A stretch of DNA of 64,000 nt from an uncultured Mycobacteriaceae bacterium (GTDB taxonomy: Bacteria; Actinomycetota; Actinomycetes; Mycobacteriales; Mycobacteriaceae): the NCBI GenBank assembly GCA_902826815.1, contig CADEGF010000016.1:1-64000 (forward strand). The letters are read 5' to 3'. The notes under the pieces are model-generated. The model was given only the letters and a program-made list of their open reading frames with translations, searched no databases and was not told the DNA's origin. Positions 31,242 to 62,889 of this stretch are shown here, piece after piece. The first letter of the stretch is position 1. Each line of letters starts with the position of its first letter. The translations under genes and the position numbers were made by a program.

Positions 31242-31256
31242 AATATCCAGGATATT
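31242..31256. promoter_or_regulatory. Perfect palindrome AATATCCAGGATATT (operator site 1)
   Basis: Seven-base arms around a central A. The core ATATCCAGGATAT (31243-31255) is the most symmetrical of six related sites in this window. It lies 63 bp upstream of the proposed start of operon A, and also in the divergent region of the MFS gene. Likely binding site of the FCD-GntR protein encoded at 62100 (inference). Confidence 0.65.
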
Positions 31257-31318
31257 GGTTCTCAGATAAGACATCTAGAGCCTGTTCCGCGGGCCTTCCA
31301 GAGGACGGAGGACGGATA

Positions 31319-32089
31319 ATTACAAGCCGGGTTTGGGATGCGTTCCTGACCGATCAGGACAAGGCGCACCTCGCTGCATCCGCACCGACGCGCCGACGCG
31401 GCTTCGGTCGCAATCCAGCCGTTCTATCGGTCGACAACTACCGGAAGGTATTGGGCGACAAGCCAGAACCTTTACTCGACGCGATCAGCACCTGGCCCGC
31501 GAGCACCGGGCTGGCGGGTTGGGCGGCCGCCGATCGGATCGCCGAACTGCTCGCCGTCGCCCGCGCGGCCGACATTCCCGTCATCCACCTGACCGGTCTT
31601 GCCGAGGAGGAATCCGGCATTTCGGCATGGGCCGCGAAACTCGGTGGCCGTCACGGGCTCAACGGCCAGGCGGCCGACCAACTCGACCGGCACCACCGCC
31701 GCTTCGATTTCATCGACCAGGCTGCGCCTCTCGCCGGCGAGGTCGTGCTGAAGAAGACGGCGCCGAGCGGCTTCTTCGGAACACCGCTGCTCGCACACCT
31801 CATCGCCCAGGGGATTGACACCCTCATCGTCTGTGGCGAAAGCGTGAGCGGATGCGTGCGCGCCACCGTCACCGACGGCTGCGCCTACCGCCTGCACATG
31901 GTCGTGGTCGAAGAGTGCGTCTACGACCGGCACGAGGCGACCCGCGCCATCAATCTGTTCGACATCGATCAGAAATACGGCGATGTGATCTCGCAGGCTG
32001 AGGTCACCGAATGGATCGCCGGGCGCCGGAACGCCTTGATCGCCGGCGACGGTGACCCGTCGCCGCACCACGCAGATTCACCGCTGTAA
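31319..32089 (+). CDS. Isochorismatase-family amidohydrolase, probable ATT start
   Basis: About 256 residues, N-carbamoylsarcosine amidase/isochorismatase type. The N-terminal VWDAFLTDQDKAHLAAS and FGRNPAVLSVDNYRKVLGDKPEPLLDAI are typical of the family, with catalytic Asp39 in VDNY, Lys145/146 in VVLKKTAPSGFFG and Cys179 in ESVSGCVRATV. The first canonical start, TTG 31451, would remove Asp39, and no ATG, GTG or TTG exists in frame between the stop at 31241 and Asp39. GGAGGA at 31307-31312 sits six bases before ATT 31319, which I propose as start; ATA 31316 and CTG 31346 are alternatives. It heads operon A. Confidence 0.8.
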   Translation: MTSRVWDAFLTDQDKAHLAASAPTRRRGFGRNPAVLSVDNYRKVLGDKPEPLLDAISTWPASTGLAGWAAADRIAELLAVARAADIPVIHLTGLAEEESGISAWAAKLGGRHGLNGQAADQLDRHHRRFDFIDQAAPLAGEVVLKKTAPSGFFGTPLLAHLIAQGIDTLIVCGESVSGCVRATVTDGCAYRLHMVVVEECVYDRHEATRAINLFDIDQKYGDVISQAEVTEWIAGRRNALIAGDGDPSPHHADSPL

Positions 32090-32144
32090 CCACCGCCCCT
32101 TGATCACTATCGCTCGACAACTCTCAACAGCACAGGAGCAGCTG

Positions 32145-33293
32145 ATGCCAAGCTCGGTTCACACGCCGCGGGGATTGATCATCGGGTTGGCGTCGGCCGC
32201 CCTTCTCATCGCGTCGTGCTCGGCGCCTGGCGGCGAGTCGGAGTCGGCAGACTCGACCGCTGCCGCCGACAAGTGCGCCGACAGCGCGGTCGTGCAATTG
32301 CAGGACGAACTGAAAGGCAAGCCCGCCGAGGAGCGCGACAAGACGCTCCTCGAGAAGGCCAAGAGCACCAACGACGGAACGATCAACCTCTATACCGAGG
32401 TCAACGACCCGACCGTCATCACCGACCCGTTCGAGAAGAAGTACGACGGACTGCACGTCAGCGTGTACCGCGCAGGCAGCGAACAGATCCGCGAACGCGT
32501 GCTACAGGAGTCGCAGGCCAACTTCGCGGGTGCCGACATCGTCGAACTCGACTCACTGGAGATGGCGATACTCGATCAGAACCACTTGCTGTCCCCCGCC
32601 GATTCGCCGTACCTCGCCGACGTGACCGACAGCGGCAAGTTCGCCAACTTCACCGGAGACCGGCTCAGCTACATCGTTCCGGTCTGGAACACGACGATCA
32701 TCCCCAACGACGCCGCGCCGAAATCACTTGAGGACCTTAAGGATTCGCGGTTCAAGGGCAAGCTTGCCCTCGAGGGAAGCGACGTCTTCTGGTTTGCGTC
32801 GCTGGTGAACTACCTGCAGACCCAAGGCAAGTCCAAGGACGAGGCGGTCCAGCTCTTCAAGGACATCGCCGCCAACTCCGCGATCACCGACGGCCACACC
32901 ACCACCACCGACCTGGTGGTGGCGGGCCAGTACGGCATCGCGGCCAACAACTACATCCACCGCATCCGCGAGTTGCAAGGCAAGGGTGCGCCGCTCGAGT
33001 TCACGCCGGTGAAAGTGCCCGTGGTGGCCGAGGTGACCGGAATCTCCGTGCCGTGCGCATCGGCGAATCCCGCAGGCGCACTTCTGTTGCAGGACTTCGT
33101 CCTCGGCCCAGAAGGTCAGCAGGCGTTCATCGACGACGACCGCACGCCGAGCAACGAAACGATGGCCGAGAAGACTTTCGGTGGAGTAGACATCGAACCG
33201 ATCAAGACCGACGTGGAATCGATCTCGAAGGAGTATTCGGACTGGTCGGACCTGTGGCAGAGCGTCGTTCACAGTAGCGGCAACCAGGGATGA
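32145..33293 (+). CDS. ABC importer A: substrate-binding lipoprotein
   Basis: Protein of 382 residues, ATG 32145 after CAGGAG. A lipoprotein signal ends LIASC with Cys25. The mature protein is an extracellular solute-binding protein of the family 1 Fe(III)/polyamine/phosphonate type (INLYTEVNDPTVITDPFEKKY, SLEDLKDSRFKGKLAL, WFASLVNYLQTQGK, SVPCASANPAGALLLQDFVLGPEGQQ). It should hold the ligand outside the membrane for the permease at 33290, whose ATG overlaps its stop (ATGA). Ligand unknown; the neighbouring amidase and cupin argue against simple iron uptake. Confidence 0.9.
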   Translation: MPSSVHTPRGLIIGLASAALLIASCSAPGGESESADSTAAADKCADSAVVQLQDELKGKPAEERDKTLLEKAKSTNDGTINLYTEVNDPTVITDPFEKKYDGLHVSVYRAGSEQIRERVLQESQANFAGADIVELDSLEMAILDQNHLLSPADSPYLADVTDSGKFANFTGDRLSYIVPVWNTTIIPNDAAPKSLEDLKDSRFKGKLALEGSDVFWFASLVNYLQTQGKSKDEAVQLFKDIAANSAITDGHTTTTDLVVAGQYGIAANNYIHRIRELQGKGAPLEFTPVKVPVVAEVTGISVPCASANPAGALLLQDFVLGPEGQQAFIDDDRTPSNETMAEKTFGGVDIEPIKTDVESISKEYSDWSDLWQSVVHSSGNQG

Positions 33294-35026
33294 CCCAACT
33301 TCTCGAGACACGGCCTGAACCCCGGGAGCAGAGGTTGGCTCCAGGGGGCACGGGCCGACGGCCGTGGGCCATGTGGATCATGGGCGGCGCCGTCATCGTG
33401 GTTCTCGGGTACCTGGTTCTGTCTCCTCTGATCTATCTCGTCTGGCGCGGTCTGACCACGGGACGCGGCTTCGGGCTTTCCAATATCGCCGACGCGTACA
33501 GCGTGCCCGGCACGACGGACATGCTGCTCAATTCCGTGTTGTTCGCCTGCGGTTCGGCGGCGGTGAGCGTCGTGACCGGTACCGCGCTGGCATTCTTCTG
33601 CGTTCGGTCGAACGCGCCGCTCAAGCCGTTGCTCTACGCAGCCTCGATCGTTCCACTGATCGTCCCCGGCATCCTGTACACGATTTCGTGGGTGTACCTC
33701 ATCGGCGGCAACGTCGGCGTATTCAAGAAGATGTTCTCGAACATCGGTCTGGGATTCCTCATCCCCGACGCCTTTTCACTCCCGGGAATGATCCTGATCG
33801 ACGGGCTTCACCTGTCACCTCTTGTGTTCCTGCTGATGTACGCCGCGTTCAAGTCCACCGATCCGTCGCTCGAGGAATCCGCGATGATGAGCGGGGCCAC
33901 GGTGCCGCAGACGGTGCTACGTGTCACGCTCCCGCTGGTACGGCCCGCGCTGCTCGGCGCGATTCTGATCATGGTGGTGCGCGGACTCGAATCTTTCGAG
34001 ACTCCGGCTGTCCTCGGAATGCCCTCCGGCACCTGGGTTTTCACGTCGCGCATCTACGACGCGTTGCATACCTACCCGATCAAGTACGACCAGGCATCGA
34101 TCTATTCACTGACCCTCCTGCTGATCACCGCGTTCGGTCTGCTGCTCGTGCAGTACATGAACCGTCGAAGCGAACGATTCCAGACGGTGACCGGCAAGGG
34201 ATTTCGTCCCCGCACCCTCGACCTCGGCAAGTGGCGCTGGCCGGTGTCCATCGGTTTCACGCTCTACTTCGTGATCGCCGTGGTAGCGCCGATGCTCATC
34301 CTGCTGTGGATGTCGCTGTTGCCCTTCTATCAAACTCCCGGCATCCAGCCGTTGAGCTCGCTGACCGTGAGCAACTACGCGGAATTGTTCGAGACTCGCG
34401 GCGTGACGGATTCTGTGAAGAACTCCGCGATCTTGGGCGTCACCAGCGCCACCGCCGTCATGCTCTTCACCGCGGTCATCTCATGGATGGTGCTGAAGTC
34501 GAAGTTCAAGGGCCGCAGGCTGCTCGACCTCCTCGCGAGCTTCCCCCTTGCGATGCCCGGTCTTGTGCTCGGCGTCGCCCTGATCTTCATCTACCTGCGC
34601 TCGCCCCTGCCGATCTACGGGACCCTGGTGATCCTGTTCATCGCCTACGTCACCCGCTACCTGCCGTACGGAATGAGGTACTCGGCGTCGTCGTTGGGGC
34701 AGGTCGGCGCCGAGTTGGAGGAGTCGGCGAAGATGAGCGGAGCGACGTGGCGGGACACTTTCCGCCGCATCGTATTACCGCTCATGGGGCCGGGGCTGGT
34801 GGCGGGCTGGATCTATGTCGTCGTCGTATCGGTACGCGAGCTTTCCAGCTCGATCCTGCTGTACTCACAAAACACCCGCGTCATGTCGGTGACCATCTGG
34901 GAGTTCTGGCAGAACGGCCAAACCGGTGTGCTGGCGTCGCTCGGCGTATGCATGGTCGTCGTCCTCATGGCTCTTGTCGCGGTGGCTTACAAACTGGGCG
35001 CCAAGATCGGCGTACGGGAGGCGTAG
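33290..35026 (+). CDS. ABC importer A: double-domain permease
   Basis: Permease of 578 residues made of two fused BPD_transp_1 halves with about 12 helices. Each half carries an EAA loop that contacts the ATPase: EESAMMSGATVPQTVLRVTLPLVRP in the first half and EESAKMSGATWRDTFRRIVLP in the second. This FbpB/AfuB architecture is shared with iron and aminoethylphosphonate importers. The start ATG overlaps the stop of the lipoprotein gene by four bases, so translation is probably coupled. Confidence 0.92.
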   Translation: MTQLLETRPEPREQRLAPGGTGRRPWAMWIMGGAVIVVLGYLVLSPLIYLVWRGLTTGRGFGLSNIADAYSVPGTTDMLLNSVLFACGSAAVSVVTGTALAFFCVRSNAPLKPLLYAASIVPLIVPGILYTISWVYLIGGNVGVFKKMFSNIGLGFLIPDAFSLPGMILIDGLHLSPLVFLLMYAAFKSTDPSLEESAMMSGATVPQTVLRVTLPLVRPALLGAILIMVVRGLESFETPAVLGMPSGTWVFTSRIYDALHTYPIKYDQASIYSLTLLLITAFGLLLVQYMNRRSERFQTVTGKGFRPRTLDLGKWRWPVSIGFTLYFVIAVVAPMLILLWMSLLPFYQTPGIQPLSSLTVSNYAELFETRGVTDSVKNSAILGVTSATAVMLFTAVISWMVLKSKFKGRRLLDLLASFPLAMPGLVLGVALIFIYLRSPLPIYGTLVILFIAYVTRYLPYGMRYSASSLGQVGAELEESAKMSGATWRDTFRRIVLPLMGPGLVAGWIYVVVVSVRELSSSILLYSQNTRVMSVTIWEFWQNGQTGVLASLGVCMVVVLMALVAVAYKLGAKIGVREA

Positions 35027-35094
35027 CGCACCAAATGCCAGCGATGACTTTGACACGGCTTCAGAACCGACGACCGCAGGTGGGTGACTGACCA

Positions 35095-36237
35095 ATGCTC
35101 GAAGTAACGGCTTTGTGCAAGGGATTCAAGGACGAGTCGCAGCAGGGCCGCGTCAAGGCCGTCGACGAGGTGAGCTTCACCGTGCATGAGGGCGACTTCT
35201 TCACGATGCTCGGCCCGAGCGGCTGCGGCAAGACCACGACGCTGCGCTGCATCGCAGGTTTGGAGAAGCCCGACAGCGGCAGCATCTCTGTCAACGGCAA
35301 GGTTCTGTTCTCCGACGCCAAAGGCATCTCGGTGGCGGCGAACCTGCGCAATCTCGGCATGGTGTTCCAGAGCTACGCGATCTGGCCGCATATGAATGTC
35401 TATGACAACGTGGCCTTTCCGCTCTGCGTAGGCACCAGGCGGCGCACCCCCAAGAGCGAGGTAAAGCGCCGGGTCGAGCGCGCCCTTGACGTCGTCGGCC
35501 TCGGTCACCTGGCCGGTCGATACGCCACCAAGCTGTCCGGCGGCCAGCAGCAACGGCTGGCGCTGGCGCGCGCGCTGGTGATCGAGCCGGCCGTCCTCCT
35601 GCTCGACGAACCGCTGTCCAATCTCGACGCGAAACTCCGCGAATCACTGCGGTTCGAGCTCAAACGCCTGCAGCGGGAACAAGGCATCACCACCGTCTAC
35701 GTGACACACGACCAGGCTGAGGCGCTGTCTATGTCGAACGAGATCGCCGTGATGCACGAGGGCCGAATCAGCCAGATCGGCTCCCCCTTCTCGGTGTATC
35801 TGGAGCCGGAGAACGATTTCGTCGCCGACTTCATCGGCTTGACCAACTTCATCAAGGGTGTCGTGACGCAACGAACGGGCCGCGGCGGCACCGTCCGGAC
35901 GGCAAACGGCGAGCTGTACGTCAACAGCATGGTCGACGTCGACGTCGACGACGAGTGCGTGGTGTCCATCCGCCCTGAACAGGTACAGGTGATGGCGGAC
36001 AGCACACCGACCGGACCCAACATGTTCTCCGGAACCGTCGCCACGCGACTTTTCACCGGCGATTGCATGGACTACCAGATCAGCATCGGCGCCGAGACCC
36101 TGCGGTGTCGCACGGCGGCTTCCCAACGGTTCAGCACCGGGAAGCCGATCACGCTCTCCCTGCCATCTGAGCACTGTATTGCCTTACGTCCAAACATGAT
36201 TGGAGACAGACCGGAGAATTCAGCCACCTCGATCTGA
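35095..36237 (+). CDS. ABC importer A: ATP-binding protein
   Basis: ATPase of 380 residues: Walker A LGPSGCGKTTT, Q loop in MVFQSYAIWPHMNVYDN, signature LSGGQQQRLALARAL, Walker B LLLDEPLSNLDAKLR and H loop YVTHDQAEALS. A TOBE-like domain follows from about residue 240 (DFIGLTNFIKGVV..., SIRPEQVQVM). This is the FbpC/PotA class that energises the permease at 33290, 68 bp upstream. Confidence 0.93.
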   Translation: MLEVTALCKGFKDESQQGRVKAVDEVSFTVHEGDFFTMLGPSGCGKTTTLRCIAGLEKPDSGSISVNGKVLFSDAKGISVAANLRNLGMVFQSYAIWPHMNVYDNVAFPLCVGTRRRTPKSEVKRRVERALDVVGLGHLAGRYATKLSGGQQQRLALARALVIEPAVLLLDEPLSNLDAKLRESLRFELKRLQREQGITTVYVTHDQAEALSMSNEIAVMHEGRISQIGSPFSVYLEPENDFVADFIGLTNFIKGVVTQRTGRGGTVRTANGELYVNSMVDVDVDDECVVSIRPEQVQVMADSTPTGPNMFSGTVATRLFTGDCMDYQISIGAETLRCRTAASQRFSTGKPITLSLPSEHCIALRPNMIGDRPENSATSI

Positions 36238-36284
36238 CGACGAATCAGCTCACAAGACCGATACGAGTACAGAGGATCCGACAT

Positions 36285-36947
36285 ATGACCGAACGACAGA
36301 CGGAGTCCAAGGCCCACGACCACGGGCACGACAACGGGCACAGCCACGACCATGGGCACGGCCACAGCCATGACGACGGCGGCGACCCCAACTCACCGCG
36401 CCGTCGCGGAAAGTTGCACTATCACGAGGACGAGGTCCGCCCCCTTGCCGCGGGCAAGCTGTTGCACAAGCAGCCGCACCTCGACCTGTACGCCGACAGC
36501 GACCGCAGGCATCCTGCTCGCGATGTCGATCTGCCGCTGCGAACCATCCAGCTGCACATCTCGGAGTTGAAGCCCGGCCAGGCGACCCGGCTGCACAAGC
36601 ACCATAACGAGGCCGCCATCTACATCATGAAGGGCAAGGGCCACAGCGAGGTTCAGGGCGAGGTCGTCGAATGGGAGCAGGGCGATTTTATGTACATCCC
36701 GTCGATGCAGTGGCACACCCACGTCAACTCCGGCGACGGCCCGGTGCTGTATCTGGGCATCACCAACAAGCGGATGCTGGACTGGCTCGGCCTGGACCGG
36801 AAGGTCGAGGCGGGCAAGCACGTCCCGATGGAGGAGGTGCAGAAGGAGATCGAGGCGAAGAGCTATTCGCCGTACTCCTACTACAGCATCACCCCCGAGG
36901 AGGGTGTCCGGTTCGGCCCGGAGGGCTTCATCACCCACAACGACTGA
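36285..36947 (+). CDS. Cupin-domain protein with His-rich N-terminus
   Basis: Protein of 220 residues. The first ~35 residues are dominated by His, Asp and Gly (HDHGHDNGHSHDHGHGHSHD), resembling metal-chaperone tails. The cupin core contains LHKHHNEAAIYIMKGKG (motif 1 with HxH and Glu) and WEQGDFMYIPSMQWHTHVN (motif 2 with second metal His). Cupins of this form are metal-dependent dioxygenases or isomerases. A function in the pathway fed by importer A is likely but not defined. It is last gene of operon A, followed by a terminator. A related cupin begins operon B. Confidence 0.8.
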   Translation: MTERQTESKAHDHGHDNGHSHDHGHGHSHDDGGDPNSPRRRGKLHYHEDEVRPLAAGKLLHKQPHLDLYADSDRRHPARDVDLPLRTIQLHISELKPGQATRLHKHHNEAAIYIMKGKGHSEVQGEVVEWEQGDFMYIPSMQWHTHVNSGDGPVLYLGITNKRMLDWLGLDRKVEAGKHVPMEEVQKEIEAKSYSPYSYYSITPEEGVRFGPEGFITHND

Positions 36948-37808: not shown

Positions 37809-37899
37809 GAAAACTCCTGATCGGAAGCGAAAATGGACGCCCTGTGACGAGTGCGCTCGAGGTCAGTTTAACGTCCGTGATCCTGTTGACCTGAAGATT

Positions 37900-37912
37900 A
37901 TATCCATTATCA
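37900..37912. promoter_or_regulatory. Operator-like site 2 (ATATCCATTATCA)
   Basis: Shares the ATATCCA half with the palindrome at 31242. It lies 57 bp upstream of the first gene of operon B, in an AT-rich promoter region. Confidence 0.5.
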
Positions 37913-37968
37913 TGTATTGAACCGGCGGCACGCCGGAAGCCCCTGCAGATTGAGGAGAGACAGCCACG

Positions 37969-38487
37969 ATGCCCGAAAAGAGGATTGACTCGATCGAGGA
38001 GATCGAGATCCGCGACCAGGCGCTGAGCGAAACCGCGAACAGCGAGATGACCAACCGCGAGCAGTGGAACCAAAAAAATCCTCCGACCGAAGCGGTCATC
38101 GTCAAAGACCTGAAGACCACCGAGCTGACACCCCGCGAGTACCGCAACACCAAGGCCCGCTTCTACCGGCTTGGCGGCGATATCCGGCTGCAGCCCCACG
38201 TCAGCGAGCTCCCCCCCAAGGGCGAATCCGTCAATCACCGGCACACCACCGAGGCCGTCATCTACATCGTGCGCGGTGTCGGGCACACGATCATCAGCTG
38301 GGACGGCGTGAACAAGCAGCGCATCGACTGGGAAGAAGGCGACATGTTCAGCTTCCCCGTCTGGATGTGGCACCAGCACTTCAACGACAGCGAGACCGAG
38401 GTCGCCCGGTATCTGGCCGTGCAGGACACGTTCGCCGTGAAAGCACTTGGCCTGCACCAGATCGAGAGGTTTCCGGAAACTCAGTAG
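37969..38487 (+). CDS. Cupin-domain protein (operon B)
   Basis: Protein of 172 residues. Cupin motif 1 is VNHRHTTEAVIYIVRGVG and motif 2 WEEGDMFSFPVWMWHQHFN, giving the usual three His and one Glu ligands. It shares topology with the cupin of operon A but lacks the His-rich leader. It precedes the lipoprotein gene by 33 bp and is expected to act on the compound imported by importer B, or to bind it. Exact reaction unknown. Confidence 0.82.
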   Translation: MPEKRIDSIEEIEIRDQALSETANSEMTNREQWNQKNPPTEAVIVKDLKTTELTPREYRNTKARFYRLGGDIRLQPHVSELPPKGESVNHRHTTEAVIYIVRGVGHTIISWDGVNKQRIDWEEGDMFSFPVWMWHQHFNDSETEVARYLAVQDTFAVKALGLHQIERFPETQ

Positions 38488-38520
38488 CCGAGGGACAGCA
38501 GCACGGCAGAGACGAAGGAA

Positions 38521-39585
38521 ATGATGAAACCTACGAGAGCAGGCCGTCCCGGTGTCGTGCTGACTGCCATCGCCATCGTCGCGATCTCCATCGCCGGATG
38601 CGGTTCGTCCAACGGGCCCGCGACGTCGTCTGAGGGACCGTTGAGCGTGAGCATGGATGAGGCGTGCGCGGCCGCCGTCGACGAGAGCGGCGACCTCAAC
38701 TACGTCGCCTCTACCGACCCCGCAGTCTTCGCCAAGGAGATCGAGCCCTTCACGGCCAAACATCCCGACATCTCGATCAAATACACCAACCTCCGCTCCG
38801 ACGACGCCAGTCAGCGACTCCTTGCCGAGTCCCAGACGCGTCACGACCTGTCGTTCGACGCGCTGTCGGGCGACCTGCCCGGCTTCGACCCACTGTTCCA
38901 GCAGAACATGGTGCGCGACGTCGACTGGCCGGCGCTCGGCGTCGCGGACGATCTCGTCATCGAGCAGCAGGACGGCACTGCGTGGCGCAACTACCGCCTC
39001 ATTACGGGCCTCGGATACAACTCCGACCTGGTGCCCAAGGACCAGCTGCCCAACACGTGGAAGGAGCTCGTCGACAGCAAGTGGGCAGGCAAGGTCATCG
39101 TGGACCCACGCGGGTCGTACCTCGGTGGAATCGCCCTCGCGTACGGCGAACAGGAAACGGTCGATTGGTTCAAGGACTTCATGGCCACCGACAAGCCGCT
39201 CATCATCCAGGGTGCGACGGCCAGCGCCCAGAAGGTGATTGCGGGCGAGGCGCTGCTCACGACCAGCGCGGCAGACGCCAACATCCGTGAGTCACAGGCG
39301 GCGGGCGCGCCCATCGACATCAAATACCTCGATGTGGTGCCGACGAGCGACTACCACACGCTGATCATGAAGGACTCGCCGCGGCCCAACAAGGCGGCGT
39401 GCTTCCTCGGCTGGCTGGCAAGCGATGAGGGCGCTGCCCAGAAGGCCAAGTTTGAGTTCCAGCTCAACGACAGCAATCCGCCTGCAGTCCCGGCGACATC
39501 GAAGCTTGTGCTCACGGACTCGCCGGAATCGCTCAAGACGTCGACCGACACCTCGACGGCGCTCGCGAAACTGATGGGGAACTGA
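38521..39585 (+). CDS. ABC importer B: substrate-binding lipoprotein
   Basis: Protein of 354 residues with lipobox SIAGC (Cys27). Mature sequence pattern of family 1 solute-binding proteins: YVASTDPAVFAKEIEPFTAKH, LPNTWKELVDSKWAGKVIVDPRG, AKVI-like VIAGEALLTTSAADANI, and ACFLGWLASDEGAAQKAKFE. It is distantly related to the binding proteins of importers A and C. GAAGGA precedes the double ATG. Ligand unknown. Confidence 0.9.
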   Translation: MMKPTRAGRPGVVLTAIAIVAISIAGCGSSNGPATSSEGPLSVSMDEACAAAVDESGDLNYVASTDPAVFAKEIEPFTAKHPDISIKYTNLRSDDASQRLLAESQTRHDLSFDALSGDLPGFDPLFQQNMVRDVDWPALGVADDLVIEQQDGTAWRNYRLITGLGYNSDLVPKDQLPNTWKELVDSKWAGKVIVDPRGSYLGGIALAYGEQETVDWFKDFMATDKPLIIQGATASAQKVIAGEALLTTSAADANIRESQAAGAPIDIKYLDVVPTSDYHTLIMKDSPRPNKAACFLGWLASDEGAAQKAKFEFQLNDSNPPAVPATSKLVLTDSPESLKTSTDTSTALAKLMGN

Positions 39586-39663
39586 GCCGCCGCGGCACGG
39601 ACGAACAGCAGCCCGGGCTCATCTGTCCCCGGCAGCAGCCGGATGCAGCAGAGAGGTAAGCGC

Positions 39664-41424: not shown

Positions 41425-41560
41425 GCGGGGTTCAGAGAGCGAGGCCGACGGCGCGGACTGCACAGCAGACGGAACCTCGCAGCAGGCGCTTCGCGACGGC
41501 ACGACAACGGTCTTGGGGCCCAGCGCCCGCCGTCGCTCCACAGTTGGGAGAAAGTGTGTC

Positions 41561-42742: not shown

Positions 42743-42790
42743 ACCAGCCAGCGGCCCGCGTTCGGGCACGGCGTCAGAACAGGAGAATCG

Positions 42791-49741: not shown

Positions 49742-49771
49742 CCACGTGCGAATCGAATTGGAGGACCAGCG

Positions 49772-50668: not shown

Positions 50669-50683
50669 GTCGATCAGCGAAAC

Positions 50684-50708: not shown

Positions 50709-50714
50709 CTCCCT

Positions 50715-52948: not shown

Positions 52949-53926
52949 TCAGCTTCGAAGTTGGGGCAGCACTTCGGAACCCAGTAGCTTGATCTGCTCG
53001 AAGAACCGATCGAATTTGAAGCGGAAGTCGAAGACCAGATGCTGGGTTCCCAGGTCCTGGAATTTCTTCACCTCGGCAACCGCCTCGTCCGGTGAGCCGA
53101 CGATCAACTGGCCCTCCAGATCCTCCACCGTCTCGAATGTGCCCGACGGAGGACGCACCGCGAACTTCGCCTTGTTCGCCCACGCCAACAGACCGGGAAC
53201 GTTGACGTACTTCAACGCTTCCTCGCGGGTCTCTTCGATGCTCGTCGGCGGGATCACCGCGATCGTCGGCACCTCCCTACCCTTCTTCTCCGAAAGGTCC
53301 CGCATCGTCTCGATCCGCTTGGCCATGGTGTGCAACGAGATCCGTCCGGGCATCCAGCCGTCGCAGAACTCGACCGCCAACCGAGCCGACCGCGGGGTGG
53401 CGCCGCAATACCAAAACGGCACCCGACCCTTGACAGGTTTCGGCTCGATGGTGATGTCGTTGAAGGTGAAGTTGTCGTCGGTGTAGTCGACGTTGTTCTC
53501 CGTGAAGACCCGACGCAGGATCTCCGCGTTGGAGCGCACGAGTTCGACACGGTCCCTGTCGCCCCACTCGATGGCCTCGAACTCGTGGTCGAAGGTTCCC
53601 GCTCCGAAGCCCAGAATCAGTCGCGGACCGACCAATTGGGTGATCGTGCCCGCCATCAGCGCTGTGATCAACGGATGCCGGAAGGGGATCAGCGATCCCG
53701 TGCCCAGTTCGATGCGGTCGGTTACCGCGCCGATGGCGGTCAACGTCGTCAACGCGTCATAGAACGTGCGGTTCGGCTTCTCCATCTCACCGTGCGGTTC
53801 GAACACCAGATGGTCGCGCACCCACACCGAGTCGAAGCCGACATCCTCGGCGAGCTTCGAACCTTCGAGCAGCTTGTCCTTGTCCGCGTGTTCACCGAAA
53901 TGGGGCAGTAGCAATCCGAACTTCAT
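52949..53926 (-). CDS. LLM-class flavin-dependent monooxygenase-like protein
   Basis: Luciferase-like protein of 325 residues, ATG 53926 (MKFGLLLPHFGEHADKDK). Features are DVGFDSVWVRDHLVFEPHG, DRIELGTGSLIPFRHP, LILGFGAGTFDHEFEAIE and VPFWYCGATPRSARLAVEFCDGWMPG. The longer frame to 54112 overlaps the amidohydrolase and is rejected. It starts 1 bp past the amidohydrolase stop, so the two are tightly co-expressed, as in flavin-dependent ring opening followed by amide hydrolysis (inference). Confidence 0.88.
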   Translation of the reverse strand: MKFGLLLPHFGEHADKDKLLEGSKLAEDVGFDSVWVRDHLVFEPHGEMEKPNRTFYDALTTLTAIGAVTDRIELGTGSLIPFRHPLITALMAGTITQLVGPRLILGFGAGTFDHEFEAIEWGDRDRVELVRSNAEILRRVFTENNVDYTDDNFTFNDITIEPKPVKGRVPFWYCGATPRSARLAVEFCDGWMPGRISLHTMAKRIETMRDLSEKKGREVPTIAVIPPTSIEETREEALKYVNVPGLLAWANKAKFAVRPPSGTFETVEDLEGQLIVGSPDEAVAEVKKFQDLGTQHLVFDFRFKFDRFFEQIKLLGSEVLPQLRS

Positions 53927-53927
53927 A

Positions 53928-55352: not shown

Positions 55353-56299
55353 GCCTTTGCTCCTGTCGTTTCTTTGATGTGCCCGTTCGGGCTGACTGTG
55401 CTGCGCACCGCGAGATCGACTGGCCGAACGTAGGTGTCGAACCACTCGACGATCCGCGGCGTGGTCTGTTCCCAGTACTGGTCGTAGGCCGCGTAGTGGG
55501 TGGTGTGACGCTGGATGATGAGTTCCTTGGGACCCGACGCGGCGGCGTAAAGCGCCTCGGCGTGATCGGTCGGCGTCGTCGCGTCACCGTCGACCCCGAT
55601 GATCAGCAGTGGTGTCGTCATCCCGGCGGCTGCGACCAACGGCTGATAGTTCAGGATCTCGTCCGCACAAGCCAACGGCACGTCAGTCGGGATGCGACCG
55701 TCGACGTCGGATTTCACTGTCGTGGTCCGGCGTTCCGCCGACGGCACCATGATCTCTTCGCGGGGATGAACCCTCCGGCCCACCCCTTCGACCACGCGCC
55801 GCTTCCGGTCCGCCTCCAATTCGCCGAGGAACGCCAACCATTCCGACTCGGACCGCATTCGGTGTAGCCAGTCCCTGCCGTCCGCCACCGGAACCTGACT
55901 CACCGCGGCCTTGATCCGGGTATCTGCCGCGGCAAGGAGTACCGCGTTGCCGCCGCCGGTGCCACCGCTGCCGAAGACGCCGATGGCGTCGGCCACCACG
56001 TCGGGACGCGTGGTCAGGTAGGTGACGGCGTTCATCAGATCCTGCAATTGCCAAGTAGGCGAGAGGATCCCGCGGTCTCCTTCTGATTCACCGAAACCGC
56101 GATAGTCGAAGATCAGCACACCGAAACCGGCCTCGGTCAGCGCTTCGTGGTACCGCACGTAGAGCTTGGAATCCTTGAGACCCAACCAGCCGGGGCCCTG
56201 CACAATGGCGCGATACGGACCTGATGCGCCCTCAGCGGTGCGCCACAGGGCGTCGATCCGCTGACCTTCGCTGTGGAAGGTGACGGGGGTCGTGTGCAT
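55349..56299 (-). CDS. Alpha/beta hydrolase (S9/DLH-like)
   Basis: Protein of 316 residues. RAIVQGPGWLGLKDSKLYV replaces the usual HG oxyanion sequence; FDYRGFGESEGDRG follows. At the nucleophile elbow it reads GVFGSGGTGGGNA, with Ser in GSGGTGG, an unusual elbow. The acid and His regions are LIIGVDGDATTPTDHAE and RHTTHYAAYDQYW. It is first gene of the four-gene operon hydrolase-amidohydrolase-LLM-aldolase, with operator-like site 4 47 bp upstream. Confidence 0.85.
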   Translation of the reverse strand: MHTTPVTFHSEGQRIDALWRTAEGASGPYRAIVQGPGWLGLKDSKLYVRYHEALTEAGFGVLIFDYRGFGESEGDRGILSPTWQLQDLMNAVTYLTTRPDVVADAIGVFGSGGTGGGNAVLLAAADTRIKAAVSQVPVADGRDWLHRMRSESEWLAFLGELEADRKRRVVEGVGRRVHPREEIMVPSAERRTTTVKSDVDGRIPTDVPLACADEILNYQPLVAAAGMTTPLLIIGVDGDATTPTDHAEALYAAASGPKELIIQRHTTHYAAYDQYWEQTTPRIVEWFDTYVRPVDLAVRSTVSPNGHIKETTGAKA

Positions 56300-56345
56300 G
56301 ACGCGGCCTCTCTTCTCTACTGCCTAGGCAGGCAACTGTCATCTT

Positions 56346-56358
56346 ATATCCAAAATAC
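56346..56358. promoter_or_regulatory. Operator-like site 4 (ATATCCAAAATAC)
   Basis: Plus-strand ATATCCAAAATAC, within an A-rich patch, lies 47 bp upstream of the start of the minus-strand hydrolase operon (56299). It keeps the ATATCCA half and the ATAC end of the consensus. Confidence 0.5.
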
Positions 56359-56374
56359 AAAATGCAAAAACGGG

Positions 56375-57619
56375 TCAGTCATCATCAGCGCCAGAAGCGC
56401 TCTCTTCAGCGCCATGCTCGCCAGACATCGCGGGTTCCAGTGCACGCTGAGTACCGGCGACACTTCGGGCCACCGCCGCACCGACGACGCCGAGACCGGC
56501 GAACACGAAAAACGTCTGCGGGATCGTCAGTACCAATGTCACCGCGCCGAACAGCAACGGCGACGAGAACTTTCCGATGTTCCTGACGGTGCCGGTGAGC
56601 CCGATATAGGACATCCGTGCTCCAACCGGGGCCATCTCGTTGGCCAGTACGTTGTGCGCGACACCGTAGATTCCGTCCTGAATGCCGTAAAGCAACAGGC
56701 CGATCGCCACGACGACGGCGGTGTTGCCCCATCCGATGAGGACCAGGCTGACGGTGATCAGCAGCATGGCGCCGAGGATCAGCTCCGACGACCGCCAGCG
56801 CGACGCGAGCCGCTCCGACAGCAGTGCCGTCACCGCGGAGAGTGCACCGCACGCGCCCACCAGCCAACCGACCGCCGCCGCCGACATCCCGACGTGGTCG
56901 ACAGCGAGCACGGGGGTATAGGTCAACACCGCGAACTTGAAGATGAAGCGCGCCGCGGCCAGGGTCTGAACGCCGACGACGGCAGGCGCCTGCCAAACCG
57001 ATTCCTTCGTACCGTCCTTGGCCTTTCGCGGTTCGTCCTGGTGATCTTTGAGCACGAACCACGCGACCACCGCCAAGGGCAGGGTCAGCATCTGCGTGGC
57101 AAAGGGCGCGAACCACGAAACCGCCAGCAGCATGCCGCCGATCACCGGGAACACCGATTCCGACGCTGCCATCGCCACGATCCGCCGGCTCTGGTCCCGG
57201 TGCGCCGCCCGCCCGGACAGGGCAACCGAGCCGATGATCCCGACGGTCATGGACTGCAGCGAACCGAAGACGATGCCCTGCACGAACCGGACGGCGAGCA
57301 AGGTCGGAAGATCATGCGCGAACATGAGGAGAAGGCCGCCCAACCCGAAGATCGTCAGGCCGCCAGCGACGATCTTCCGCGGGCCGATTCGCTCGGTGAG
57401 CACCCCGGCAGCGAATGCCGAGAACACCCCCGGGAGCAGGTAGACGCTGGTGATCAGGCCGACCTGGAAATTGTCGAGGCCGAAGTGGTCACGTATCGCG
57501 GGTATCGCCGGAACGATGCCCTGCATGCCCGACGTGATGAACCCGGCGGTGAGCGCAGCGACCCAGACCGTTGCGCCAACGCCCGGCTGACGTTGCGCAC
57601 GCGTGCCAGAGCGCGCCAT
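56375..57619 (-). CDS. MFS transporter
   Basis: Membrane protein of 414 residues with about 12 helices; ATG 57619 is preferred, with GAAGGGGAG upstream (GTG 57622 alternative). The N-terminus has VWVAALTAGFITSGMQGIVPAIPAIRDHFGL and VLTERIGPRKIVAGG (motif A-like). Mid-sequence has a Lys-rich cytosolic loop with KAKDGTKESVWQ. Probably takes up or exports the organic substrate of the cluster. It ends 76 bp before the hydrolase operon's start and appears to be in the operon led by the LLM at 61892. Confidence 0.87.
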   Translation of the reverse strand: MARSGTRAQRQPGVGATVWVAALTAGFITSGMQGIVPAIPAIRDHFGLDNFQVGLITSVYLLPGVFSAFAAGVLTERIGPRKIVAGGLTIFGLGGLLLMFAHDLPTLLAVRFVQGIVFGSLQSMTVGIIGSVALSGRAAHRDQSRRIVAMAASESVFPVIGGMLLAVSWFAPFATQMLTLPLAVVAWFVLKDHQDEPRKAKDGTKESVWQAPAVVGVQTLAAARFIFKFAVLTYTPVLAVDHVGMSAAAVGWLVGACGALSAVTALLSERLASRWRSSELILGAMLLITVSLVLIGWGNTAVVVAIGLLLYGIQDGIYGVAHNVLANEMAPVGARMSYIGLTGTVRNIGKFSSPLLFGAVTLVLTIPQTFFVFAGLGVVGAAVARSVAGTQRALEPAMSGEHGAEESASGADDD

Positions 57620-57672
57620 CACTCCCCTTCCCTCATTCGCCTTCCTTATTCACGACGATGTCCTGCTCGACC

Positions 57673-59835
57673 TCAGTAGGACACCAAAAGCCCGCCCTCC
57701 AGCGGAACATCGAGCAGCGTGTGAAACACCAGATACAAGACGACGCAGGAGATCACGGTCGTCAACACCGTCGTGAGCCAACGCTCACGGGTGACCAGGC
57801 GCAGGAACAGCACGAAGATCACGGGAACGGTGATTTCGAGGCCGACCAGGATGATCCCGATCAGCATGCCGACCACGAGTATCAGGCTCATCCGGAGGCG
57901 ACGCGCCATGCCGTCGGATTCGTCAGCGACAGGTTCGGCAGGTGTGACCTGCTCTGCCGTGCTGAGCTGACCACGCTCGACGACGACACCGTCATCGGCC
58001 ATCGTCTCGTTCGATCGCCCATGACCGCCGACGGTCGTATCACGCTCAGCGCCAAGTTTTTCGGTGGCATCCTCCTCCAGTTGGGCGACCATCTCCTCCA
58101 TGCCGCCGCCGTCTGCGATCAGCCCACCCGCCCTGCTCCGGACGGCGGGTACCAAGGCCACCACGAGATACACGGCGACCAGGACCACCAGGGCGCCCGC
58201 GGTGATGACGGGGAAGGTGCGGCCCTTGTCGCTGAAGTCAGCGGCCATCGCGAGAGCCACGACGGCAACAAGACCGAACGCCGACATCACTGCCAACGAC
58301 CATGGCCGCGTGGCAGATTCGATGCCACGTGCGACCTCCGCTGCGTCGCGTTGGCCCGCTCGGCGGGTGGAGATCGCCTCATAGACCAGCACCACGATGG
58401 TCAGAATCAGCAGACCGACCGAGATCGGCCGTGTGAAGAACCCGCTGACGCCTCCGTAGGAGGAGAGCGTCTGCAGGTACGACTTCTCCACCAGCGGACC
58501 GAGGATGAAGCCGAGGATCACGGGTATGAGCGGCATCCCGATCGACCGCATGGCATACGCGACCAACCCGAAGCCGATCGACGCGATCACATCGGTCGAG
58601 CTGAGATTCAGTGCGTAGGCTCCGATCACCGCCAGCATCAGGACGAACGGCGACAAGATGCCCGGTTTGATCCGGGTGATCTGAAGCAGTTGCGGCCCGA
58701 AGATCAGGCCGAGTACAGAGGTGAAGAAGCTTGCGGCGCTCAGCACGATGATCGCGATCCAGACGATGTCCGGACTCTCCCTGATCAGGTTGGGTCCAGG
58801 GGTCAACCCGTGAATCACCATGGCGCCCATCACGACCGCCCAATCGGAGCTGCCAGGGATACCGAAGGCGAGACTGGGTAGCGCGGATCCGGAATCCTTC
58901 GCGTCGTTGGACGCTTCCGGCGCAAGCACGCCGCGGGGGTCGCCGTATCCGAATCGCGGATTCTTGCATGTCCTGGCCGCCTGGAAGTACGCCAGGAACG
59001 CCGCCACACTTCCGCCGACGGCGGGTACCAGGCCGATACCGGCACCGATCAGCGAGCTGCGGATCAACAGGAACGGCTGCTTGATCGTGTAGACGACGCC
59101 TTCCAAGATCTGCTTGTGGCCGAACTTGAGGTCCGAGACGCCTTTGGCGACGCTCTGGTTCGTTCGCAGTAGTTCGAGCGCCTCGGTGACAGCGAACATG
59201 CCGACGAGCACGATCACCACGTCGAAGCCGTTGTAGAGCGAAGGTTGGTCGAATGCGTATCTGACGTCACCGCCGACCGGTGCGAATCCGACGAACGAGA
59301 ACAGCACGCCGAGCAGACCCGACACCACGCCCTTGAACATCGATCCACGAGATGCCATCGCGATGACCGTCAAGCCGAACACCCCGAGCATGAAGAACTC
59401 CGGGAAGGAGAACGACAGCACCAACGGCCGCACGATCGGAATCAAAGCGATCAAGACCGCCGTGCCGATGAACGACCCGAGGAACGAGGACGACGCGGAT
59501 ATGCCGATCGCGAAGCCACCGCGACCCTGCCGCGCCAGCGGGTAACCATCCAAAGTCGTTGCGGCACTGGGTGACGATCCAGGAACGTTCAGGAGGATGG
59601 CGGTCACCGAACCGCAGAACGATTGACCTGCCAGTGCGGCGATGAACAACCCCATCGCAGTGTGGGTGTCCATGTTGTAGGTGAACGGGATCATCAGCGC
59701 GATCCCGACTGAACCGCCGAGGCCGGGCAGCAGACCGGTGAGCATGCCGTTGGCGCAGCCGACCAGGAATGCGATGAGGAAGGCCCAGTTCGCCATCGAG
59801 GACAGCGCGTCGGGCAGCGCGCTCAGGAATCCCAT
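57673..59835 (-). CDS. Fused TctA-TctB tripartite tricarboxylate transporter
   Basis: Membrane protein of 720 residues. Residues ~1-495 are TctA, with GMLTGLLPGLGGSVGIALMIPFTY, SVTAILLNVPGSSPSAATTLDGYP, GGSVAAFLAYFQAARTCKNP and GSALPSLAFGIPGSSDWAVVMGAM. The rest (~500-720) contains two pairs of helices split by a ~90-residue acidic cytosolic stretch, like an interrupted TctB subunit. TctA and TctB are normally separate proteins. With TctC at 59843 it forms a complete secondary importer for carboxylates. Confidence 0.88.
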   Translation of the reverse strand: MGFLSALPDALSSMANWAFLIAFLVGCANGMLTGLLPGLGGSVGIALMIPFTYNMDTHTAMGLFIAALAGQSFCGSVTAILLNVPGSSPSAATTLDGYPLARQGRGGFAIGISASSSFLGSFIGTAVLIALIPIVRPLVLSFSFPEFFMLGVFGLTVIAMASRGSMFKGVVSGLLGVLFSFVGFAPVGGDVRYAFDQPSLYNGFDVVIVLVGMFAVTEALELLRTNQSVAKGVSDLKFGHKQILEGVVYTIKQPFLLIRSSLIGAGIGLVPAVGGSVAAFLAYFQAARTCKNPRFGYGDPRGVLAPEASNDAKDSGSALPSLAFGIPGSSDWAVVMGAMVIHGLTPGPNLIRESPDIVWIAIIVLSAASFFTSVLGLIFGPQLLQITRIKPGILSPFVLMLAVIGAYALNLSSTDVIASIGFGLVAYAMRSIGMPLIPVILGFILGPLVEKSYLQTLSSYGGVSGFFTRPISVGLLILTIVVLVYEAISTRRAGQRDAAEVARGIESATRPWSLAVMSAFGLVAVVALAMAADFSDKGRTFPVITAGALVVLVAVYLVVALVPAVRSRAGGLIADGGGMEEMVAQLEEDATEKLGAERDTTVGGHGRSNETMADDGVVVERGQLSTAEQVTPAEPVADESDGMARRLRMSLILVVGMLIGIILVGLEITVPVIFVLFLRLVTRERWLTTVLTTVISCVVLYLVFHTLLDVPLEGGLLVSY

Positions 59836-59842
59836 GGCGTGC

Positions 59843-60850
59843 TCAGCTCGTCAACGTCGGCACGAGCTCCTTCATCTGCTCGATCTGTTTCTTCATCACC
59901 TCGGTAGCCGCTTGCCAGTCCCGCGGGATGATCGGCCGCTTGGCGCTCTTCGCCCAGTCCGCGAACTCGGGGCTGCTCATCGTCTTGAAGGTGGCGTCCC
60001 GCAGATAGGTGGCCACGCCGTCGGGCAGTTCGGGCGGCGCCACGATCAGACGAAGTTCGGTAACCGCTCCACTGAGGTCGGCGAAGCCCTTCGACTGAGC
60101 ACTCGGCACTCCCTTCAACCAGGGCAGCGTGGGCGGCCGTTGGTCTTCGGTGCCCAGGAACAGCAGTGGCCGGATGTCGCCGGACTCCACGAAGCCGGTC
60201 AGGTCGGTCGATCCGTACACGATGAAATCGGCGTCTCCGCGCAGCAATCCGGTCACCACGTCCGCGGATCCCTCTGCTCCGTAGGTGACGGTGGCGTCGA
60301 GCTTGAGTGCCTTGATGGTGGCGAGTCCGGCCAGTGCCGACGAGGAGCCCTCCTCGACGGTCAGGGTGCGCAGTCCCTTCTTGTTGATCAAGTCCTCGAT
60401 CGTGCGGTACGGCGAATCCGACGCGACATAAACCACATACGCGTTCTCGTCGACGCTGCCGAGCACGGTGAACTTCTCGGTATCCCATTTGGCCAGATCC
60501 GGGTCTTGGATCTGCTGCGCGATCGCGGCGGGCATCGGCAGGATTCCGATGGTGTAGCCGTCCGGCTTCGCCGTGTACTGCTCAGTGATGCCCTGCGGCA
60601 GCGGCGGCATGTTGCGGATCACCACGCTGGTCCCGTCGGGCAGCTGTGTCTTCTGCATCACTTCGGCGATTCCGCGCGAGTAGACGTCGAATCCCCCGCC
60701 CGGGCTGTAAGGAACGATCCAGTCGATGTCCTTCGACGGCGTCCACGCCCCTTGAGAGTCGGTGCCGGAGGACGATTTCGATCCGCAGCCTGCGACGGCG
60801 AGCCCTGCGACGAGTCCGACCGCGATAACACGAAAAAGCCGGTTCTTCAT
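59843..60850 (-). CDS. TctC-type substrate-binding lipoprotein
   Basis: Protein of 335 residues, lipobox VAGC with Cys22 (MKNRLFRVIAVGLVAGLAVA). The Bug/TctC fold is recognised by WIVPYSPGGGFDVYSRGIAEVMQ, VIRNMPPLPQGI, and DFIVYGSTDLTGFVESGDIRPLLFLG. Such receptors bind di- or tricarboxylates and some aromatic acids and hand them to TctAB, encoded 7 bp downstream. Substrate unknown. Confidence 0.9.
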   Translation of the reverse strand: MKNRLFRVIAVGLVAGLAVAGCGSKSSSGTDSQGAWTPSKDIDWIVPYSPGGGFDVYSRGIAEVMQKTQLPDGTSVVIRNMPPLPQGITEQYTAKPDGYTIGILPMPAAIAQQIQDPDLAKWDTEKFTVLGSVDENAYVVYVASDSPYRTIEDLINKKGLRTLTVEEGSSSALAGLATIKALKLDATVTYGAEGSADVVTGLLRGDADFIVYGSTDLTGFVESGDIRPLLFLGTEDQRPPTLPWLKGVPSAQSKGFADLSGAVTELRLIVAPPELPDGVATYLRDATFKTMSSPEFADWAKSAKRPIIPRDWQAATEVMKKQIEQMKELVPTLTS

Positions 60851-60869
60851 GGTGTTGCGTCCCTTCGGA

Positions 60870-61892
60870 TCAGCGATACTTCGGCAGGATTTCGTTCGCC
60901 CACAGCTCCATTTGGCGCGTCAACTCGTCCATCGTCGGGTAGATGAATTTGAGCTCGAAATGTGTGACGCCCGCATCGACGAACTCCTCGACGCGGCGCT
61001 GCACTGCCGACACCGATCCGAAGATGTGCCGGTCGAGCGCGAACTGGATCTGGTCGACGTCGCGTTCGTATGTCCCCGAACTCGTCTCGACAGTGGGCAG
61101 AGCGCGGGCCATCGCGGCGTCTTGGTCGGTGTCGATCACAGTGAGCTTCTCGACCGCGATCGTGATGTCATCCGCGCTTCGGCCGTGTTCCTCGGCCGTC
61201 CTTCGCACGATTTCTGTGCCACGGGCCATCTCGCTCGGCGACAGCCAACCGGGCACCCACCCGTCGCCGACTCGACCGGTTCGACGGGCAGCCGCATCGG
61301 TCCAGCCCCCGACCCACACGTCGGGACCCTTGTCCTGCAGCGGTTTCGGGAAGATCTCCGCGTCTTTGAACTCGACATAGCGACCCGAGTAGGAGGCCAG
61401 CGGCTCGGTCCAGATCGCCCGCATCGCCTCGACGTATTCGTCCGTCATCCGCGCACGTGCCGAGAACGGCACACCGAACACATCGAACTCGCTGGATTCC
61501 TTGGAGGCCTTGGAACCCAGTCCGACGCCCGCGATCAGACGTCCGCCCGTCAGGTGGTCGAGAGTGGCCAATTGCTTGGCCGCGTAGATCGGATTGCGTG
61601 TCGGCATGATCAGGCAGGCCACCCCGATGCGCACCCTCGAGGTCTTCGCCGCGAGATAACCGATCGTGGTGAGCGATTCGAAGAAGTCGGCGGACTGATC
61701 GTCGGCGAGCGCCTCGTGCGCGCCGGAGGAGATGTGGTGGCGGTGCATCGCAGTGCTCCACACCACGTGGTCGTGAAGGAAGATCGAATCGAACCCCATC
61801 TGCTCGGCTTCGGTGGCAGCACGGGTGATGTTGTCGACAGACGTCAATGGCCCCGAATTGGGCACCCGCACGCCGAATGAAACCTCCGCCAC
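60870..61892 (-). CDS. LLM-class flavin/F420-dependent oxidoreductase
   Basis: Protein of 340 residues, start GTG 61892. Luciferase-like pattern: FGVRVPNSGPLTSVDNI, EQMGFDSIFLHDHVVW, TSRVRIGVACLIMPTRNPIYAAKQLATLDHLTGGRLIAGVGLGSK, and KGPDVWVGGWTDAAARRTGRVGDGWVPG. It leads the operon LLM-TctC-TctAB-MFS; operator-like site 5 is 40 bp upstream. It is distinct from the LLM at 52949 and may act at another step. Confidence 0.88.
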   Translation of the reverse strand: MAEVSFGVRVPNSGPLTSVDNITRAATEAEQMGFDSIFLHDHVVWSTAMHRHHISSGAHEALADDQSADFFESLTTIGYLAAKTSRVRIGVACLIMPTRNPIYAAKQLATLDHLTGGRLIAGVGLGSKASKESSEFDVFGVPFSARARMTDEYVEAMRAIWTEPLASYSGRYVEFKDAEIFPKPLQDKGPDVWVGGWTDAAARRTGRVGDGWVPGWLSPSEMARGTEIVRRTAEEHGRSADDITIAVEKLTVIDTDQDAAMARALPTVETSSGTYERDVDQIQFALDRHIFGSVSAVQRRVEEFVDAGVTHFELKFIYPTMDELTRQMELWANEILPKYR

Positions 61893-61931
61893 AGGGCCTC
61901 CTCGGACCTCGATTGGTCGATTTCAAATAGA

Positions 61932-61944
61932 TTATCTTGGATAC
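61932..61944. promoter_or_regulatory. Operator-like site 5 (reverse GTATCCAAGATAA)
   Basis: On the minus strand GTATCCAAGATAA, near-palindromic (TATC-CAA-GATA). It lies 40 bp upstream of the LLM start at 61892, inside a 207-bp gap that otherwise holds no gene. Confidence 0.55.
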
Positions 61945-62099
61945 AGAATCCTGCAACCGTTATCTATCGATTGACTAAGCGCCAGCGGGGTGCGTCGAAA
62001 GCAGGACACGCGCAGGCGTCAGCCGCGCGCTTGCCGGCGAGCGGGCTGGCAGGTCAGGGCACGAGAGGTCGTTCAGTGCGCGCCCGCAGGCGGGCGTGG

Positions 62100-62807
62100 C
62101 TAGGCCGGCGACTTCTCTTCGTTCGCGACGATGGCCTGCAGTCTTTCCGAGACCTTGTGCAGATGCTTGACCAGCCAGGCGGTCGCGGCCTTGGTGTCGC
62201 GCTTGCGCAGATGGTTGATGAGCTCTTCGTGACTGTGCTGTTCGTCGACGCGCTGCAACAGCAGATAGCGTCCGACGGCACCGCGCAGGTTGTTCACCTG
62301 AGCCAGCGCCCTTGGCCGATCGGCCCGCAGATAGAGCTGTTCGTACAGCTGGTAGCGCCGATCGAGCCGCTCGCTGAGCTCTTCGGCGTTCTCCAGGTCC
62401 TCGACAATCGCCTCGAGGCGGTCGACCAGTTCGTCGTCCATGGCCTGGATCGCGAGCTTCAGCAGATAGGACTCGAGCAGGATACGCAGTTCGTAGATTT
62501 CGGCGATCTCATCGGGCCGTAGCACCGAAACGGTGGCGCCGCGATACGGGTGGATCCGAACCAGACCCTCGTTCTCCAATTGGCGGAGGCTGGCGCGCAC
62601 GGGCATCCGGCTGACGCCGAGCGAGCCAGCTATGGTGTCGAGGTTCAACCGCTGTCCTGGGCGGAAAATGCCTTGGACGATGGCCTCCCGGATGAAGGAC
62701 TGGGTCATGTCCTCGACGGTCTGGAACGTGCCGCGCACGGACTCCGCAATGTTGCTGAGGACTTTGGCGTCCCGCTCCGACACCTCGACCTCGATACTGC
62801 GTGCCAT
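62100..62807 (-). CDS. GntR-family regulator with FCD domain
   Basis: Protein of 235 residues. The winged helix at about 33-97 reads IREAIVQGIFRPGQRLNLDTIAGSLGVSRMPVRASLRQLENEGLV...GATVSVL. The C-terminal FCD ligand domain (about 105-225) has ELRILLESYLLKLAIQAM, RRYQLYEQLYLRADRP and QRVDEQHSHEELINHL, with the metal-binding His positions typical of FCD. It is probably a repressor released by a carboxylate-type ligand. The six operator-like sites in this window, including one 70 bp before this gene, suggest it controls the island and itself. Confidence 0.9.
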   Translation of the reverse strand: MARSIEVEVSERDAKVLSNIAESVRGTFQTVEDMTQSFIREAIVQGIFRPGQRLNLDTIAGSLGVSRMPVRASLRQLENEGLVRIHPYRGATVSVLRPDEIAEIYELRILLESYLLKLAIQAMDDELVDRLEAIVEDLENAEELSERLDRRYQLYEQLYLRADRPRALAQVNNLRGAVGRYLLLQRVDEQHSHEELINHLRKRDTKAATAWLVKHLHKVSERLQAIVANEEKSPA

Positions 62808-62876
62808 GCTCTCCTAGCCTCATCTCGGGCCTCGTGGCCCATTAGCTGTGTGACTGTAGCTGTTCCTGTGAGTGTT

Positions 62877-62889
62877 ACATATTGGATCG
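62877..62889. promoter_or_regulatory. Operator-like site 6 (reverse CGATCCAATATGT)
   Basis: Minus-strand CGATCCAATATGT lies 70 bp upstream of the GntR gene, a probable autoregulatory site. It keeps ATCCA and ATA-like bases of the consensus. Confidence 0.4.

Follow-up and report, generated by a model that had tools for sequence, protein, structure and literature searches.

The cluster and its six sites

The 64,000-nucleotide stretch analysed here (the window) covers positions 1-64000 of C16, a contig of 110 kb in a 6.87-Mb genome of an uncultured Mycobacteriaceae bacterium, and our subject is a set of six AT-rich sites that stand before five catabolic/uptake operons and before the gene of a GntR/FCD regulator, here called 62100. 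Gene assignments follow Pfam, and the extent of operon 1 is that suggested by gene spacing. The cluster reads as follows (LLM, luciferase-like monooxygenase; MFS, major facilitator superfamily; TPP, thiamine pyrophosphate; Mo, molybdenum):

31319..36947, plus strand: operon 1, isochorismatase-like hydrolase, solute-binding protein, fused permease, ATPase, cupin
37969..43687, plus strand: operon 2, cupin, solute-binding protein, fused permease, ATPase, alpha/beta hydrolase
43952..52019, plus strand: operon 3, ATPase, solute-binding protein, fused permease, TPP enzyme, 3-hydroxyisobutyrate-dehydrogenase type enzyme, MFS
52949..56299, minus strand: operon 4, in transcription order alpha/beta hydrolase, amidohydrolase (cyclic-amidohydrolase type), LLM protein
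56375..61892, minus strand: operon 5, LLM oxidoreductase, TctC, fused TctA/TctB, MFS
62100..62807, minus strand: GntR/FCD regulator, 235 amino acids (PF00392, E 2.6e-15; PF07729, E 1.2e-12)
62919..64000, minus strand: 3' part of a Mo-binding subunit gene, whose operon runs on beyond the window

The 62100 protein exceeds the cut-offs of both PF00392 (56.2 bits; cut-off 27) and PF07729 (48.8 bits; cut-off 24.3) and thus belongs to the FCD (FadR) subfamily; its GntR domain begins at residue 39 and is preceded by a conserved stretch. The six candidate operators, with the scores of a motif learned outside the window, are:

31233..31258, plus strand: site 1, array GTATCTA-ATATCCA-GGATATT, 31.0 bits, before the isochorismatase-like/ATP-binding cassette (ABC) transporter/cupin operon
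37897..37917, plus strand: site 2, 24.1 bits, before the cupin/ABC transporter/alpha-beta hydrolase operon
43853..43873, minus strand: site 3, 21.7 bits, before the ABC transporter/TPP enzyme/dehydrogenase operon
56341..56363, minus strand: site 4, four AT steps in 7-bp phase, 25.6 bits, before the alpha/beta hydrolase, amidohydrolase and LLM genes
61920..61949, minus strand: site 5, five AT steps in 7-bp phase, 14.7 bits, before the LLM/TctC/TctAB/MFS genes
62877..62901, minus strand: site 6, the weakest, 12.1 bits, between the Mo-binding subunit gene and the GntR gene

Their near edges lie 40-82 bp from the open reading frame (ORF) starts used, namely isochorismatase-like 31319, cupin 37969, ABC ATPase 43952, alpha/beta hydrolase 56299, LLM oxidoreductase 61892 and GntR 62807. 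The six sequences quoted in an earlier sequence-only reading of this DNA are all present at the positions and on the strands it gave, and the best copy is, as it claimed, a perfect 15-bp palindrome, AATATCCAGGATATT.

The motif, its rarity and its 7-bp phase

The motif was trained on 31 upstream regions from other genomes only, with the window excluded; an earlier registration of 20 sites had included the window, and was repeated without it for the out-of-sample test. Matches of at least 8 bits in the window fall at exactly the six sites (31.0, 25.6, 24.1, 21.7, 14.7 and 12.1 bits). Expectation-maximisation on 26 regions reached a log-likelihood of 191.7, compared to 44.4-53.7 in eight Markov-shuffled sets (120 seeds for the real set and 40 for each shuffled run). 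None of 400 column-permuted matrices gave six window positions of at least 12 bits (mean 0.195, maximum 4). Among 3000 dinucleotide shuffles per 180-bp region, 0, 0, 0, 0, 2 and 7 scored at least as high as the real sequence at sites 1 to 6, respectively. The training sites are orthologues rather than independent sequences; among Jiangella loci only L105, L107 and L109 contributed, and neither locus L079 nor the regions ahead of the second GntR copy in L069, L070 and L071 did. With the window-including registration, L106 and L110 had no match of at least 9 bits, and the distant loci L112-L114 gave matches up to 12 to 18 bits, to which we attach no meaning.

The consensus offered by the sequence-only reading proved enriched, if modestly, and a poor descriptor. 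With up to two mismatches it matches the window 11 times against 4.56 (standard deviation 2.21) expected, a count reached in 1 of 100 shuffles, and it recovers four of the six sites (one of them matched on both strands) plus six other places. Genome-wide there are three exact matches, two of them within the window; the remaining one (C47:51622, locus L044) has no learned-motif match of at least 6 bits. At one mismatch the count is 21, compared to 8 with the reversed control. The consensus was therefore rejected as a search string, being weak and incomplete. A sequence-only model, R1, was also rejected for whole-genome scanning as too weak, since at 21 positions it missed the other known sites. 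In the own genome it gave two matches (E up to 10), at site 1 and C83:1411. Five relatives gave 12, all on contigs with cluster genes (in G099, a single-contig genome, within the cluster) and most of them training sites.

Outside the window, 64 stretches of the own genome (1,270,805 bases) were scanned, and the motif reached at least 12 bits four times, always in stretches that had been chosen for a reason. In the remaining 60, 11 of them picked for a one-mismatch consensus match and some others on similar grounds, there was no site of at least 12 bits. The four sites are:

C16:67080-67100: 18.5 bits, 3 kb beyond the window and immediately ahead of a CoxG gene that is followed by flavin adenine dinucleotide (FAD), 2Fe-2S and Mo-binding subunit genes
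C44:15862: 20.0 bits, before a cupin-like gene (26.0 bits, slightly below the Pfam cut-off of 27.2) and a solute-binding protein gene whose product is 77% identical to that of operon 1
C83:1411-1431 (L117, G000:C83): 30.8 bits, ~156 bp before a methyltransferase gene
C96:5956: 16.1 bits, ~110 bp before an FCD-GntR gene whose product is 31% identical to 62100

The single regulon across 32 kb that the sequence-only reading proposed is thus supported as one regulon, and its extent was set too narrowly: as judged from the motif, it would also include the site before the Mo-hydroxylase operon and the one on C44. The C83:1411 site, distant from any cluster homologue, possibly marks a further member.

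The sites are not single palindromes, as first proposed, and are instead 7-bp-phased arrays of TATCYAA-type heptads. For a set of 39 sites, identity is highest at lag 7 (z 10.4) and lag 14 (5.9), with smaller peaks at lag 5 (4.3) and lag 2 (2.7), these z values being inflated because the sites are related. In the same set, dyad axes at 5.5, 9, 12.5 and 16 score 0.48, 0.46, 0.46 and 0.40 compared to a mean of 0.28. Because these four axes, 3.5 bp apart, are of similar strength, the single-palindrome reading was rejected, and just such a ladder of dyads is predicted by a 7-bp-periodic array. For eight own-genome sites the lag-7 identity is 0.46, a value reached in none of 2000 shuffles; site 2 alone gives no lag-7 signal in its wider context (0.26). 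The skeleton AT-N5-AT-N5-AT occurs 11 times in the window against 4.07 expected, with 10 occurrences inside the six sites and every site covered, and with any other spacing from 4 to 13 at most one site is touched. Runs of four in-phase AT steps are found at nine genome positions, five of which lie in four regulon sites, and at none in the reversed control. Three steps occur at operons 1-3 and four or five at operons 4 and 5; the CoxG site (67080) has no three AT steps in phase.

A TTGACC-N17/18-TANNNT pair is present at operon 1, in three same-genus relatives and on C44, with the array starting at its -10 box or directly behind it, and is absent from the Jiangella region. At operon 2, the array lies in the N16 spacer and overlies the -10 box of TTGACC-N16-TATCAT, and two relatives are alike (three of three orthologous regions).

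Conservation and the choice of regulator

The same site stands before the regulator and its putative target operons and is conserved in relatives, which is the pattern of a regulon. It is kept before orthologous genes in same-genus genomes, and the alpha/beta hydrolase site is present in Sphaerisporangium and Jiangella as well. Site 1 is kept in three same-genus relatives, site 3 in L075 (the one examined relative that has operon 3) and site 4 in the orthologous upstream regions, while the regions orthologous to site 6 in L062-L067 have TGATCTAAWATGCA. Named relatives of the regulator include a protein of Mycolicibacterium agri (91% identity), one from a Mycobacterium metagenome-assembled genome (85%) and others of Mycobacterium and Mycolicibacterium (75-78%), followed at 60-63% by Sphaerisporangium and Jiangella; the neighbourhoods of orthologues and named relatives hold the same genes, partly rearranged. 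Orthologues (73-78%, best copy per genome, E up to 1e-30) are present in 5 of 395 other same-genus genomes, and the cluster amidohydrolase (E up to 1e-120) and the regulator are found in the same 6 of 396 genomes of the genus, the own genome included.

Among FCD-regulator loci, a site of 12 bits accompanies 11 of 11 found by a strict search (E up to 1e-30), six of which (L031-L036) contain training sites, and 2 of 29 found by a looser search. Sequence identity fails to separate these groups: five site-less loci among the 29 are equally identical over the aligned part (L002, L011, L018 and L019 at 36-39%, L010 at 35%), with E no better than 7.7e-25. The pattern KTATCYAAWATCNA with one mismatch is found 9 times in the own genome against 1 for controls, and 29 times against 2 in five carriers.

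Relatives carry a second regulator copy (60-72% identity) after operon 1; that of L071 (G157:C27, 8420-9083) is interrupted by a stop and split in two pieces. In the own genome a single copy is found at E up to 1e-30, the next best match having E 1.3e-24, and 62100 therefore probably serves both halves of the cluster.

The motif, its conservation, its rarity, its phasing, its position and its co-occurrence with the regulator gene are all direct observations. On these sequence patterns, the six sites are most probably the operators of one inducible catabolic/uptake regulon of the 62100 GntR/FCD protein. The earlier claim that a single motif precedes the GntR gene as well as the five operons held up, since the motif is kept before orthologues and both associates and co-occurs with this GntR clade. 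Several findings weigh against this assignment: sites 5 and 6 are weak in the window (14.7 and 12.1 bits); no site was seen before the second GntR copy in L069, L070 or L071; no -35/-10 pair of the sought form occurs at operons 3, 4 and 5, GntR or CoxG; and the KTATCYAAWATCNA pattern is also in some excess in 20 non-carrier genomes (G001-G020; 57 against 22 in controls). The site before the C96 gene counts on the same side, and regulators only 36-37% identical to 62100 accompany three of the 11 strict-search loci (L039-L041), which argues against exclusivity.

These last two observations lend themselves to another account, in which the arrays are common to several FCD-GntR paralogues and all or part of them are bound, with or without 62100, by a different one in the own genome, such as that on C96. 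The recognition regions are nearly the same (SRMPVRASLRQLE versus SRVPVRSALIQLE), and with distant FCD regulators beside the same kind of site, cross-talk is possible; the attribution to 62100 made by the sequence-only reading thus stands as regards motif, conservation and clade association, and is qualified by these similar sites at distant FCD-GntR genes. However, no FCD-GntR gene but that of 62100 is located in the cluster and accompanies it from genome to genome, and few other FCD loci have a site (2 of 29), so that we regard binding by a paralogue as unlikely. Far less probable is that the motif is a promoter element (an AT-rich -10 region) of a special sigma factor, or an activator site. 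It is AT-rich, lies 40-80 bp before starts and includes the -10 box at operon 2, but its position relative to the TTGACC box differs, after the -10 box at operon 1 and inside the spacer at operon 2, and each arrangement is kept in relatives; this shift speaks against the array being the promoter itself, and the motif is moreover rare in the genome and associated with the GntR clade. A resemblance by chance among AT-rich upstream sequences could draw on the weak enrichment of the earlier consensus and its recovery of four of six sites, but the out-of-sample motif and the phase counts tell against it and the permuted-matrix and shuffle controls already refute it, leaving a probability close to nil.

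Probable pathway, proposed mechanism and known systems

The Mo-hydroxylase operon, with 2Fe-2S, FAD and CoxG genes beyond the window, starts at contig position ~67052 and ends beside the GntR gene. Directly after its far end lie an inositol-monophosphatase family gene and a CysN/C-type adenylylsulfate (APS) kinase fusion gene (L072, G000:C16, 3913-6491), which probably mark the border of the cluster. Together with this operon, the cyclic-amidohydrolase type enzyme, the isochorismatase-type hydrolase, the LLM proteins and several importers make up a gene set that points to breakdown of an N-heterocycle. An NCBIfam search of ten proteins (best 25 families each) put only TIGR03619, on 60870-61892, above its curated cut-off, and this is a broad LLM subfamily model; naming of the pathway by NCBIfam was thus not achieved. 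TctA and TctB form one fused 720-residue protein (59835-57673), the TctB part of which, at 26.3 bits, stays below the cut-off of 29.1. Where relatives L069-L071 start with ATG, the isochorismatase-like ORF lacks ATG, GTG and TTG (31316-31340) and has ATT in the aligned position; translation may therefore begin at a rare codon or be inefficient. Before the LLM gene, an AC-n9-AC element resembling the GlnR box was set aside: by eye it is absent in the window, L100 and L101 and present in L063, L064, L065 and L067, and a regular expression with extra context returned one in L063 and one other in L064.

From the patterns described above we infer binding by the 62100 protein, repression, an inducer and a substrate. 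The operator would consist of AT-rich heptads (TATCYAA type) repeated in 7-bp phase over ~20-30 bp, with pseudo-dyads every 3.5 bp. When inducer is absent, the protein would occupy the array, presumably as neighbouring dimers, and, with the array at or just after the -10 box or over the spacer and -10 box, would block RNA polymerase at operon 1, C44 and operon 2. Release would follow when the FCD domain takes up an intermediate of the pathway, probably a carboxylate. More tentatively, with the balance somewhat against it, a clade of FCD-GntR proteins in several actinobacterial orders may read the 7-bp heptad array, rather than a single palindrome, as dimers side by side, such that the number and quality of heptads set the strength of repression operon by operon, a NanR-like mode in an unrelated pathway.

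No paper on this regulon or motif was recognised by title and abstract, the subscription literature being mostly outside coverage. The sites can be taken as real, and the regulon reading is very likely right; regulons of this kind are common, and the operator architecture is the unusual part. If correct, it would provide one clade of FCD-GntR regulators with an operator code open to testing, link five operons, a transporter unit far from the cluster and the Mo-hydroxylase operon to a single uncharacterised mycobacterial catabolic pathway, and add a second repeat-type operator to that of NanR, for asking how GntR dimers pack on DNA.

Among mycobacterial regulators, Ms0535 of M. smegmatis is likewise of GntR/FadR type and binds before its own gene, which shares an operon with a transporter gene; however, its footprinted operator is a plain 26-bp inverted repeat of unrelated sequence with a 4-nt spacer, and it is reported as an activator (PMC4609117). 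FadR-subfamily operators are described in PMC4494728 as TKGT/ACMA palindromes with GT and AC 2-3 nt apart and extra weaker half-sites 7-12 nt from the centre. The protein family and the placement of sites before the own gene and target operons agree with the present case, whereas none of 8 own-genome sites contains the GT-N2/3-AC core (35-bp contexts), and in the array several dyad axes are about equally strong. The same source lists direct-repeat operators as exceptions among GntR regulators, namely NanR, FarR and NagQ. The NanR repeat operator of E. coli, at which three dimers bind (GGTATA)3 cooperatively according to PMC8012715, is the nearest known analogue. Cooperative binding of the NanR type goes through an N-terminal extension, and the conserved stretch ahead of the GntR domain in 62100 does not by itself indicate cooperativity. 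Both systems pair an FCD-type GntR regulator of a catabolic/uptake regulon with a short-tandem-repeat operator, and the tandem direct repeats in fixed phase that typify NanR are found here, although with another unit and step, TATCYAA-like heptads every 7 bp in place of GGTATA.

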